DNA of 26,082 nucleotides from positions 1 through 26,082 of IMG/VR virus record IMGVR_UViG_3300020479_000005; one strand, given 5' to 3'. This DNA comes from a virus. This document shows positions 5,373 to 18,747 of the stretch, in pieces. The stretch's first letter is position 1; each line of letters starts with the position of its first letter. A model generated the notes under the pieces. It was not told where the DNA came from. It did no database searches and saw only the letters and a list, made by a program, of their open reading frames with translations. The translations under genes and the position numbers were made by a program.

Positions 5373-5430
5373 TTAGATACTAGGCGGAAGGCGGACAGTG
5401 CCCGCTATATAGTAAAGCCCGCACCGCGCT

Positions 5431-5490
5431 GCCCTCGATACTGCCCTCGATACTGCCCTCGATACTGCCCTCAATGCTGCCCTCAATGCT
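5431..5490. repeat. Five tandem 12-bp repeats (candidate iterons)
   Basis: Three identical copies of GCCCTCGATACT are followed by two identical copies of GCCCTCAATGCT, head to tail with no spacer. The repeat length is a multiple of three, so the minus strand reads SIEG five times, but there is no sign of a real gene around it. Twelve bases is a little over one helical turn, suiting one protein binding per repeat. Confidence 0.8.
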
Positions 5491-5545
5491 GCCAACCCAT
5501 ATAAAATATAAATGCCTACATATAAAATTTATGTACAAAAGCCTC

Positions 5546-15728: not shown

Positions 15729-15838
15729 ACACAGCAGAAGAAATCTCCAGATTGAAAAATCAGGCTAACGCATTGAAGTACGGAGTTTGGTTTGTTTTTA
15801 TTATCGTAGCTCTTTTGGCGCTGGGGGGTGTGTTTTGA
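15725..15838 (+). CDS. 37-residue single-pass membrane peptide
   Basis: The ATG overlaps the preceding stop. The peptide has a polar N-terminal part (MNTAEEISRLKNQANALK) and a hydrophobic C-terminal helix of about 18 residues (YGVWFVFIIVALLALGGV), giving one transmembrane segment. Its TGA overlaps the polymerase TTG start as TTGA. A membrane anchor, or a lysis or exclusion role, is possible. Translation of it may be needed to start the polymerase. Confidence 0.6.
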   Translation: MNTAEEISRLKNQANALKYGVWFVFIIVALLALGGVF

Positions 15839-18747
15839 TTATTATATTTGATATGGAGTCGTACTTCGGACCAAAATACTCCCTAACCACGCTGTCCTAC
15901 ACGGATTACGTGGATCACCCTTTGTTCAAAGTCCACGGCTGCGCGATCAAGGAAGAAGGCCGTCCCCCGTTCTGGTTGGAGCCCGATCAGTTCCCTGAGT
16001 ACGTTAAGTCGCACCTACAAGACACCTTCGTGGCCCACAACGCGCCGTTTGACCTTACGATCTGGACGCGCTACTACAAACTCCCCCTCCCTGCCCGGCT
16101 GGTCTGCACCAAGGCGCTCGCGGCGCTTACTCGTGGATACACCGAGCCCGACCTGTCGTTATCTACACTCACCGGAGAGAAGGGGGAGGATTTGAAGTTG
16201 ACGTATGGGCTGAGGGAACTGCCATCGGAGATCAAGACCAAGCTCGTGGACTATGCCCTGAACGACGTTGCCATCACGGAGAAGTTACTTCACGCTTTGC
16301 TACAAGAGACGGTGGCTGCCGGGATCGACCTAAAACAGGAGCTACGGGCCATCGACGCTACCCTTCGCCTCTTGGCACCAAAAATCCCCCTCTGCGTGGA
16401 CCGGGAGAAACTGCGGGTGGAGGAAATCAACGAGCGCCAGCAAGAGCAACTGGCCGTCACCGACGCGGCGAAGCAGTTAGGGCTGTCCCTGAAGGAATTA
16501 GAGAAGCAGGTCAAGTCTCGCGCGAAGTTCACCGAGCTATTGACCCGGCTGGGTGTGGAAGTGCCAACGAAAAAGTCCCCGAGCACCGGCGAACAGATTC
16601 CGGCAATAGCCAAGAACGACGAAGCCTTTACGAAGCTCAGGGAGGAATACGACGGCACCATCGTAGCGGAGTTGATTGATCTTCGCCTGAATCTGTCGTC
16701 CTCCCTGAAACGCACCCGCACGGCCAGATTACAGCGTCTGGCCCTTACGGACGGCCCCATAGCGCCAATCCAGGTGCATCTGAACTTCGCTGGGGCGCAG
16801 CAAACGCTGCGCTGGTCCGGGGCTAACTCCCTCAACCTGCAAAACCTTCCGCGTGAGGGTTCAATCCGGGCCTGTCTCGTGCCTCCCGAGGGACATAAGT
16901 TGGTGGTCTGCGATTACAGTAGTATCGAGGCGCGGGTGTTAGCATGGTTGGCGAAGGAGGAAGATACCCTCAAGGTGTTTCGGGCCGGACATGACGTGTA
17001 CGTGGACATGGCCGAGAAAGTGTGGCCGGGCACCGCACGGATGGACAAGGACGATAAGGAGTTCAAGCGCCGTCGGTTCGCGGCGAAGTGTTTGATTCTT
17101 GGACTGGGCTATCAGGCAGGATGGGTAGTTCTGGAGAGTATTTTGCGCCTTGGAGTGCTATCCGGTGGCAAGACCCGCGTGACGTTCAGTGAACAGGACG
17201 CCTTGGAAATGGGCGTGTCGGGGTCCGAGTTCGCGGACTTCTTTGAGTGGTACTTGAGCAAAATCCCAGAGGACCGAGGTCAAGCCCTGACCCGAGCGGT
17301 AGAAGAAACCCCGGCGCTGTTCTGGCACTACGCCACCTGCCAGTTCCTTGTGAAGAAGTACCGCGACGATCATCCTATGACAAAAGCCCTGTGGGAGCGG
17401 TTTTCCTACCCAGACGACGGGGTGTTTGGCGGACTACGTTACGGATGGGAAGGGAAAAACTGGGCACTTCACTTGCCGGGTGGTACTCGGTTATTGTATA
17501 ATACACCTGTCATAGAGGAACGGGGCTGGTCGTATTGGCTGAAGAAAGGGAAGGTGTACACACACGGAGGTAAAGTGGTTGAAAACTGTATAAGCCGTGG
17601 TACAATGGTCCTAACCGATCAGGGATGGGTGGAGATAGAGAATGTACAAGATCATCACTTGGTCCATGACGGCGTAGAGTTCGTCCATCATAACGGTCTT
17701 ATTTACAAAGGGGTTCAGGACTGTATTTTGGTGGACGGTGTGTATATGACTCCGGATCATGAAGTACTTACAGATGAAGGCTTTAAAAGTGCATCCTCAC
17801 AGCCGCGACCTTACCGGCCAGAAATTCGGAATGTTGAAAGCAGTGGAGAGGGCCTATACGGATGGAAAAAAGTGGCATTGGAAGTATTTATGCGACTGCG
17901 GAAACTTTACGGTGAAAGTTTCTGCGGATGTAACAAAGGAAATAAAGCGAGGGGGACTTCCGAACTGCGGATGTATGAGCAAGAAATTGATTGCGGAAAA
18001 AAACAAAACTCACGGCATGAGTCAGCATCCAGCTTATTGGGTTTGGAGAAGTATGAGAGATCGTTGTCGTTTGCCTTCGCATCAAGCATGGAAAAACTAC
18101 GGGGGGCGAGGGATAACGGTATGCGAACAGTGGAACGAATCTTTCGAGAATTTTTGGGAGGATATGGGGAGCTCGTACCATCATGGATTGCAGTTGGACC
18201 GTATAGACAACAACAAAGGCTATTCTCCGGAAAATTGCAGATGGATCATTGCCAAAGGAAACGCCAGAAACAAAAGAACGAATACTGTAGTCAACACTCC
18301 GTGGGGGGAAATGACCGTATCGGAGGCTTCCGAAATATCTGGAATAAATGTTACGACTATTTTGTACAGGATAGACAATGGATGGGATCATATAGAGGCG
18401 GTAACTGTGCTACCGAGTTATGCCAAGAAAAAGAAGTATACGACCTCTTGGAATGTGGACCGCGCCACCGATTTGTTGTCAAGGGGGAAAACGGACCTTT
18501 CATAGTCCACAACTGTACCCAAGCAGTTGCAAGAAACCTGCTCCGGGACGCATGGGTAGAAGCCAACCAAGCCGGGTTGAACGTAGTCCTGACCGTCCAT
18601 GACGAGATCGTGTGTGTGCAGCGAGAGGAGGAAGCAGAGGAAGCAAGAGAGGTATTGACTCAAATCATGAGCACGGCCCCGGCGTGGGCACCAGACCTGC
18701 CGGTAGAGGCGCAAGCGAAGATTTGTAACAGTTACGCGGAGAAATAA
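15835..18747 (+). CDS. Family A DNA polymerase precursor, interrupted by an intein
   Basis: The 970-residue precursor would yield about 661 residues after splicing, a normal size for a phage Pol I-type enzyme. I start at TTG 15835, overlapping the preceding TGA, with GGGGGGTG upstream; it gives an N-terminus at IIIFDMES. The 3'-5' exonuclease has FDMES (Asp6, Glu8), AHNAPFD and YALNDVA. The polymerase has motif A CDYSSIEAR (Asp360), motif B with RRFAAK and LGLGYQAG (Lys418) and motif C TVHDE (His922 of the precursor). The intein lies in GKVVEN/CTQAVARN, a conserved segment before motif C, so the enzyme cannot be complete until splicing occurs. The DNA inside the intein also encodes an endonuclease in another frame. 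Confidence 0.93.
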   Translation: MIIIFDMESYFGPKYSLTTLSYTDYVDHPLFKVHGCAIKEEGRPPFWLEPDQFPEYVKSHLQDTFVAHNAPFDLTIWTRYYKLPLPARLVCTKALAALTRGYTEPDLSLSTLTGEKGEDLKLTYGLRELPSEIKTKLVDYALNDVAITEKLLHALLQETVAAGIDLKQELRAIDATLRLLAPKIPLCVDREKLRVEEINERQQEQLAVTDAAKQLGLSLKELEKQVKSRAKFTELLTRLGVEVPTKKSPSTGEQIPAIAKNDEAFTKLREEYDGTIVAELIDLRLNLSSSLKRTRTARLQRLALTDGPIAPIQVHLNFAGAQQTLRWSGANSLNLQNLPREGSIRACLVPPEGHKLVVCDYSSIEARVLAWLAKEEDTLKVFRAGHDVYVDMAEKVWPGTARMDKDDKEFKRRRFAAKCLILGLGYQAGWVVLESILRLGVLSGGKTRVTFSEQDALEMGVSGSEFADFFEWYLSKIPEDRGQALTRAVEETPALFWHYATCQFLVKKYRDDHPMTKALWERFSYPDDGVFGGLRYGWEGKNWALHLPGGTRLLYNTPVIEERGWSYWLKKGKVYTHGGKVVENCISRGTMVLTDQGWVEIENVQDHHLVHDGVEFVHHNGLIYKGVQDCILVDGVYMTPDHEVLTDEGFKSASSQPRPYRPEIRNVESSGEGLYGWKKVALEVFMRLRKLYGESFCGCNKGNKARGTSELRMYEQEIDCGKKQNSRHESASSLLGLEKYERSLSFAFASSMEKLRGARDNGMRTVERIFREFLGGYGELVPSWIAVGPYRQQQRLFSGKLQMDHCQRKRQKQKNEYCSQHSVGGNDRIGGFRNIWNKCYDYFVQDRQWMGSYRGGNCATELCQEKEVYDLLECGPRHRFVVKGENGPFIVHNCTQAVARNLLRDAWVEANQAGLNVVLTVHDEIVCVQREEEAEEAREVLTQIMSTAPAWAPDLPVEAQAKICNSYAEK
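17587..18513 (+). other. Intein in the DNA polymerase (Hint blocks in polymerase frame)
   Basis: Cys585 of the precursor starts CISRGTMVLTDQGWVEI (block A), followed by a strand region and GVYMTPDHEVLTDEGF (block B, with the TPDH form of TxxH). After a long insert come VYDLLECGPRHRFVV (block F) and GPFIVHN with Cys+1 (block G; penultimate His, terminal Asn893). All residues for protein splicing are present. The element is 309 codons. The roughly 210-codon insert, read in this frame, is not a recognisable domain; its DNA encodes an HNH protein in the next frame. No stop codon interrupts the precursor frame. Confidence 0.9.
17759..18505 (+). CDS. HNH homing endonuclease encoded out of frame inside the intein
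   Basis: This 248-residue frame is shifted one base from the polymerase frame. It begins after an in-frame TGA at 17747 and ends with TAG at 18503-18505. Residues 17-72 (DLTGQKFGMLKAVER, then CDCG at 45-48 and CGC at 70-72) form the N-terminal zinc-binding part of phage HNH proteins. YWVWRSMRDRC, YGGRGIT (114-120), LDRIDNN (146-152) and ENCRW (158-162) form the HNH core. Residues 181-219 (WGEMTVSEASEISG) look like a helix-turn-helix. The true N-terminus is unclear; no good ribosome site precedes the ATG at 17759. Such enzymes cut intein-free alleles so that the element is copied. Translation could be internal initiation or frameshifting. Confidence 0.88.
   Translation: MKYLQMKALKVHPHSRDLTGQKFGMLKAVERAYTDGKKWHWKYLCDCGNFTVKVSADVTKEIKRGGLPNCGCMSKKLIAEKNKTHGMSQHPAYWVWRSMRDRCRLPSHQAWKNYGGRGITVCEQWNESFENFWEDMGSSYHHGLQLDRIDNNKGYSPENCRWIIAKGNARNKRTNTVVNTPWGEMTVSEASEISGINVTTILYRIDNGWDHIEAVTVLPSYAKKKKYTTSWNVDRATDLLSRGKTDLS

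Follow-up and report, generated by a model that had tools for sequence, protein, structure and literature searches.

Inteins are usually seen as single polypeptides in which splicing and homing are united. In the canonical large inteins an in-frame LAGLIDADG or HNH domain provides the endonuclease. The DNA analyzed here is a viral stretch of 26,082 nucleotides (positions 1 to 26,082 of the IMG/VR record IMGVR_UViG_3300020479_000005; the whole stretch is referred to as the window) that includes an interrupted family A DNA polymerase gene. The interrupting element is very probably a mobile Hint intein that encodes its homing endonuclease separately, in an overprinted gene read at +1 within the intein. 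As in canonical large inteins, the Hint domain sits at a conserved site in a replication gene that is essential, and the putative endonuclease lies between blocks B and F. Unlike in those inteins, the endonuclease would be a separate protein, read in another frame from its own start, and the linker is an overprinted stretch predicted to be disordered.

An HNH sequence hidden out of frame in a stop-free host frame was described before in the methylase of the phage ShiLan (Arsenault, Gosselin and Gogarten 2025, PMC11855218). The authors proposed an independent start codon, found no detectable ribosome-binding site and stated explicitly that there is no splicing domain, so that the insert is thought to remain in the methylase; the same case is repeated in a 2025 announcement (PMC12613952). 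The nested open reading frame (ORF) of the window is also out of frame with a stop-free host frame. It differs from ShiLan in that its carrier is a complete intein with a Hint domain and in that a Shine-Dalgarno sequence is the rule. In the literature searched, out-of-frame HNHs were found only in PMC11855218 and PMC12613952, neither with an intein carrier. A complete intein with an overprinted endonuclease was not found in that literature, one 2025 preprint on actinobacteriophage inteins ("non-canonical architecture") being outside the coverage, and priority is uncertain.

Elements of the same kind are nonetheless present in GenBank. Both ORFs of APSE-1, P45 and P46, are recorded there, as are the polymerase inteins of vB_SenS-Ent1 and BPS11Q3, the Ent1 record having an intein "encoding splicing domains". 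In these records the out-of-frame nested endonuclease and the intein are not connected as one mobile element. The APSE polymerase intein is also listed in InBase. Another related system is that of the fractured genes, reportedly described by Dassa and co-workers in 2009, where a free-standing endonuclease gene lies between the halves of a split intein. The window resembles this arrangement because its endonuclease is a separate gene between Hint halves, and the relatives L001, L003 and L144 (L numbers designate loci) show the split form in the same polymerase gene. It differs in that the host frame is unbroken; splicing would be in cis, and the two genes overlap.

The interrupted polymerase gene and its nested frame

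The features of the locus, with the basis of each assignment, are listed below.

15787..18747, plus strand: family A DNA polymerase precursor with a 3'-5' exonuclease region, interrupted by the intein (ORF list; mechanically listed TTG start)
17587..17793, plus strand: N-terminal splicing half of the intein, Hint blocks A and B with Cys1 and T55-P-D-H58 (alignments, AlphaFold2)
17759..18505, plus strand: nested HNH-type endonuclease ORF, +1 to the polymerase frame, maximal extent from ATG (ORF list; phrog_374, 5.6e-61)
17776..17791, plus strand: probable internal translation start of the endonuclease, consisting of the Shine-Dalgarno GAAGG, a spacer and GTG at 17789
17794..18426, plus strand: overprinted region; the host frame is an open, non-conserved linker predicted to be disordered, and the +1 frame has the zinc knuckle and HNH core
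18427..18513, plus strand: C-terminal splicing half of the intein, Hint blocks F and G, ending in VHN (alignment, AlphaFold2)
18514..18516, plus strand: +1 extein Cys codon (TGT), opening residue of the C-extein CTQAVAR

The polymerase ORF matched the profiles PF00476 (4.8e-24), PF01612 (weakly) and phrog_17 (1.9e-71), and phrog_7766 matched the C-terminal extein. An earlier note made from the letters of this DNA had placed in the polymerase frame an intein with a complete set of Hint residues. Re-derivation gave the same limits, 17587-18513, which comprise exactly 309 codons, with the junctions ...GGKVVEN / CTQAVAR... (the slash marks the splice point). The polymerase frame has no stop across the whole insert, both Hint halves included, and Cys1, blocks A, B and F, TPDH, the penultimate His, Asn309 and the +1 Cys are all found in it. 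Residues C1, G13, D28, G29, T55 and H58 are invariant in the N-half alignments, and D286, G291, R295, H308 and N309 of the C-half do not vary across 31 aligned sequences. In the AlphaFold2 model of the excised intein the pLDDT was about 97 for residues 1-80, about 96-97 for residues 280-309 and about 45 for residues 86-275, and Foldseek matched this model to the Mtu RecA and gp41-1 inteins (probability 1.00, E about 1e-3). For the excised product this predicts a Hint fold whose middle part is disordered. A search of Rfam up to E 1 detected no group I or group II intron RNA structure in the insert.

The HNH had been read as one base out of phase at 17759-18505, and the +1 position was upheld. 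The ORF also matched phrog_3377 (2.1e-51), in addition to phrog_374, and its relatives are present in 1078 phage records, many of them labelled HNH endonuclease. The aligned HNH sequences share a CxCG...CGC zinc knuckle and the core H..NYG.R..C..W...DM...LDR.DN..Y.P.NC.W, with conserved Cys, His, Asn and Arg columns. The coordinates were refined at the 5' end, where GTG 17789 is the likeliest start: it has AAGG at a spacing of 8, and it is favored because the upstream ATGs at 17759 and 17774 have no Shine-Dalgarno sequence.

Stop avoidance, translation start and selection

The openness of the host frame was compared with chance by permuting the synonymous codons of the HNH and counting stops in the polymerase frame. 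In the window, this frame has 0 stops versus 14.0 expected and none of 500 permutations was stop-free; the third frame has 16 stops versus 15.6 expected. The 64 non-redundant relatives gave 0 stops versus 399 expected in the host frame and 719 versus 682 in the third frame, and 0 host-frame stops versus 735 expected were found for 115 distinct +1 nested HNHs. In the group where the HNH is nested at +2, its own host frame has 0 stops versus 17.7 expected and the other frame 63 versus 70. For free-standing HNHs from the same loci, neither frame was depleted of stops (89 versus 84 and 51 versus 46). For the majority of single sequences the permutation P was about 0.01 or less. A chance open frame was ruled out by the synonymous permutation, the third-frame control and the free-standing HNH control.

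Translation starts were scored as an ATG or GTG in the HNH frame preceded, at a spacing of 5-10, by at least four matched Shine-Dalgarno bases, the null being a synonymous recoding of the host-frame codons. Such a start was present in 55 of 58 non-redundant members versus 12.3 expected; when five bases were required, it was present in 32 of them versus 6.7 expected. The start recurs at two positions. At one of them the ATG comes from block-B Asp codons and the Shine-Dalgarno GAGGT from Glu-Val codons, and at the other, five codons further on, AAGG(A) comes from Trp-Lys codons. Internal initiation is therefore favored as the route to the HNH, and frameshifting is unnecessary.

The changes concentrate at position 3 of the HNH codons. 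In 17 close pairs the nested-region substitutions at HNH positions 1, 2 and 3 were 366, 300 and 923 (923 of 1589 at position 3). Changes synonymous in the HNH were enriched 2.3-fold, both when they altered the host residue (2.32) and when they did not (2.36), and those that would create a host stop were not enriched (0.65). The host-frame identity of divergent pairs was 0.246 versus 0.227 expected, and that of the third frame 0.260 versus 0.250. The +2 element of Salmonella phages followed the same pattern and varied most at host position 2, corresponding to HNH position 3 (85 sites versus 36 and 19). Escherichia phage Pubbukkers (L192), whose locus starts out of register, was excluded from the position counts. 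The excess at HNH position 3, the synonymous enrichment and the near-expected host identity indicate that the HNH residues are under purifying selection and that the host frame is held open with little or no constraint on its residues.

These comparative tests of stops, start and selection lend support to the proposal in the earlier note of a continuous intein with a separate nested endonuclease gene. They also agree with its statement that selection acts on both frames, given the absence of the 14.0 expected host stops in the window and the purifying selection on the HNH of relatives. Its further suggestion of a novel overprinted polypeptide in the middle of the intein was weakened, since stop avoidance only and predicted disorder point to an open spacer. 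A functional overprinted protein in this region was considered and rejected on the basis of a host residue similarity barely above expectation, the lack of a host-synonymous preference and the disordered model.

Recurrence, apparent transfer and independent fates

A scan with the intein alignment detected 295 relatives in IMG/VR and 17 loci in bacterial genomes. Because the overprinted middle would bias the search, the N-half alone was also used as a query, which yielded 514 relatives, and the best 80 loci were classified. They included 69 continuous inteins with the HNH at +1, a few as a remnant only, 6 with the HNH at +2, 6 without HNH, 3 that were broken or split and one N-half without a called C-half. 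Locus L008, which has the HNH in two frames and a run of unknown bases, was handled as an assembly break. Recurrence of the out-of-phase HNH was thus found in these best 80 of 514 loci, with 75 HNHs nested out of frame and 0 in frame among 84 classified inteins. Host-frame stops, which were looked for together with in-frame HNHs as signs against the two-frame arrangement, were seen in relatives only in a few split inteins at another insertion site. The comparison indicates that members of this intein clade have the out-of-frame layout as a rule, and that the window is not peculiar in this respect. A sequencing-indel artefact was ruled out by the recurrence of the two-frame layout in many independent assemblies and in cultured phage records.

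The host genes of two-frame inteins confirmed by Pfam were family A polymerases and SNF2 or DEAD/ResIII helicases; a terminase-like host (L084) and a RuvC-like host (L162) were suggested by reading only, with no match in Pfam. Several insertion sites were found in the polymerases, among others EN/C.Q, GGKL/CEN, GGK/CVEN, ELA/CGYGG, GKT/CVLGLGYG and SSNIE/C. In phage helicases, two-frame inteins were observed at several conserved sites (helicase loci L101, L160, L167 and L175; SNF2 loci L061, L077 and L150). Judged by these profile matches and junctions, the layout spans at least two host protein families and many insertion sites.

Cultured phages with the element include APSE-1/2/4/5/7, Shewanella SFCi1, Caulobacter GB2A/RW/RLK/KcrB, Streptococcus Javan113, Gardnerella vB_Gva_AB1, Pseudomonas MR14 and Vibrio 97.13, and the intein of SETP3 is present in 165 phage records, 147 of them from Salmonella phages. 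Most cultured-phage records annotate a plain polymerase, and the second ORF is noted in few (APSE-1 P46, APSE-2 DQ092617 and Sodalis SO-1 gp39). In the record of Sodalis phage SO-1 (L186, 94-3282 and 1578-2336), GenBank gives a type I self-splicing intron for gp39, and the Hint motifs in the host frame indicate an intein. Since well over a hundred sequences from phages and prophages share the design, we consider it a real, selected class of mobile element that has probably been under-recognized. Many phage "DNA polymerase" records conceal an unannotated endonuclease gene, and database inteins scored as endonuclease-free may be mis-scored.

Within the Jerseyviruses, SETP3 (L185) has the intein and Jersey (L191) has an empty polymerase gene, and blastn showed a clean insertion of about 894 nucleotides at position 1900-1903 of the Jersey locus. 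These phages provide natural intein-plus and intein-minus polymerase alleles within one phage genus. SETP3 and Sodalis SO-1 share 65-72% identity in the flanks and 80-88% in the intein; for SETP3 and SP-101 the values are 83% in the 5' flank and 98% in the nested gene. Transfer of the element between phages is suggested because the intein is more conserved than the flanking extein across phage genera.

That each of the two proteins can evolve or be lost alone, as had been proposed, agrees with relatives where the HNH is truncated or deleted and the intein frame is intact. An internal stop was found in 3 of 122 HNH segments. In an APSE-like phage (L053, 3501-4421) a nonsense codon lies at HNH codon 46 and the polymerase/intein frame is still open. 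Short inteins of 372 nucleotides (L010, 4061-4432), 474 nucleotides (L110, 2501-2974) and 588 nucleotides (L157, 1583-2170), counted with the +1 Cys codon, still have recognizable HNH ends readable in the +1 frame. They are apparently mini-inteins derived from the nested form by internal deletions of the HNH that preserved the host frame. At L001 (160-1160), L003 (1820-2840) and L144 (1-960), a second, upstream intein of the same polymerase gene is split: its N-half and C-half are in different frames and an HNH ORF lies between them in the third frame. In L001 and L003 a stop closes the N-half, and there is a separate ATG for the C-half (MLVPVYDI...).

In the HNH tree the sequences fall into two strongly separated groups. 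The group of the window type has free-standing HNHs at its base, and the other is a mixture of split, +1 and +2 members, with the +2 members in one clade (support 82). This topology fits at least two captures and a transition from nested to split forms, the direction of which we infer. A broader proposal, to which we give about even chances, is that the two-frame inteins are widespread, old phage mobile elements that arose two or more times, from separate HNH lineages (one at +1; the other at +1, +2 and split). Overprinting would then be the normal HNH-Hint combination in this clade, and the two-frame inteins would be the missing intermediate between whole and split inteins. The elements offer a testable route for the entry of endonucleases into inteins and for the origin of split inteins.

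Proposed mechanism and alternative explanations

Translation of the polymerase mRNA in the host frame would produce a precursor with the Hint halves joined by a disordered linker of roughly 200 residues, and excision of the Hint domain by splicing would restore the polymerase. Ribosomes would also initiate internally at the nested start and produce a free HNH enzyme, which could cut the intein-less polymerase alleles of co-infecting phages, and repair would then copy the entire element into them. The enzyme is separate from the intein protein; decay of the HNH, or its deletion in multiples of three, would therefore leave splicing unharmed. A later break of the host frame would be tolerable if the halves splice in trans, giving rise to a split ("fractured") intein. 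With splicing and homing assigned to two frames that overlap, the cell would make two molecules from one stretch of DNA.

A different route to the enzyme would be a programmed +1 frameshift, without internal initiation, that fuses it to the N-half of the intein. The frames do overlap just past block B, where the N-half adjoins the HNH, but this explanation is quite unlikely in view of the well-spaced start and Shine-Dalgarno in 55 of 58 members (12.3 expected). Besides, most members have an HNH frame that is closed a short distance upstream of the start, and a single type of slip cannot serve the +1 and +2 nests, both of which exist. The HNH might instead be a captured dead passenger, spread with the intein and unexpressed, in a host frame that stays open since the polymerase is essential. 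The persistence of the intein in members with a truncated or deleted HNH is in line with this possibility, which we consider very unlikely, as purifying selection on the HNH residues was detected in the close pairs and the Salmonella-phage relatives, the start signal is maintained and internal stops are rare (3/122). Finally, the insert could be an RNA intron with an intronic HNH gene, the open host frame being incidental, which is how the SO-1 record presents gp38/gp39; group I introns often house phage HNH genes. The complete Hint catalytic residues in the host frame, the confidently predicted Hint fold, the lack of an Rfam match and a strict stop avoidance that an intron does not need make this reading extremely improbable.

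Several points count against a mobile intein with an overprinted endonuclease gene, the explanation that we prefer. Searches of Pfam, NCBIfam and the PDB with the nested ORF gave no match to an HNH model or a solved endonuclease; the PDB sequence search returned a single weak TnpB match, which was not used, and a fold search with the predicted HNH model returned noise only. The HNH assignment consequently rests on the PHROG families and the conserved columns, and the presumed enzymatic activity on the family annotation. The slight excess in host-frame similarity (0.246 versus 0.227) may reflect some constraint at the residue level. The summed stop counts treat related sequences as separate, which overstates the combined significance, the single-sequence tests being individually strong. 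The lists of best 80 loci are ranked by similarity, so that population frequencies cannot be read from them. Splicing, HNH translation, cutting and homing are steps that we infer from the DNA.

The two-frame inteins also supply a large, statistically clean example of long genes that overlap and are selected differently, for residues in one frame and for openness alone in the other; natural knock-outs and empty alleles exist as well. Elsewhere in the window, at 5429-5493, there is a 12-bp tandem repeat, CTGCCCTCGATA, in 5.4 copies, where one minus-strand ORF reads repeated GSIE/IEGS.

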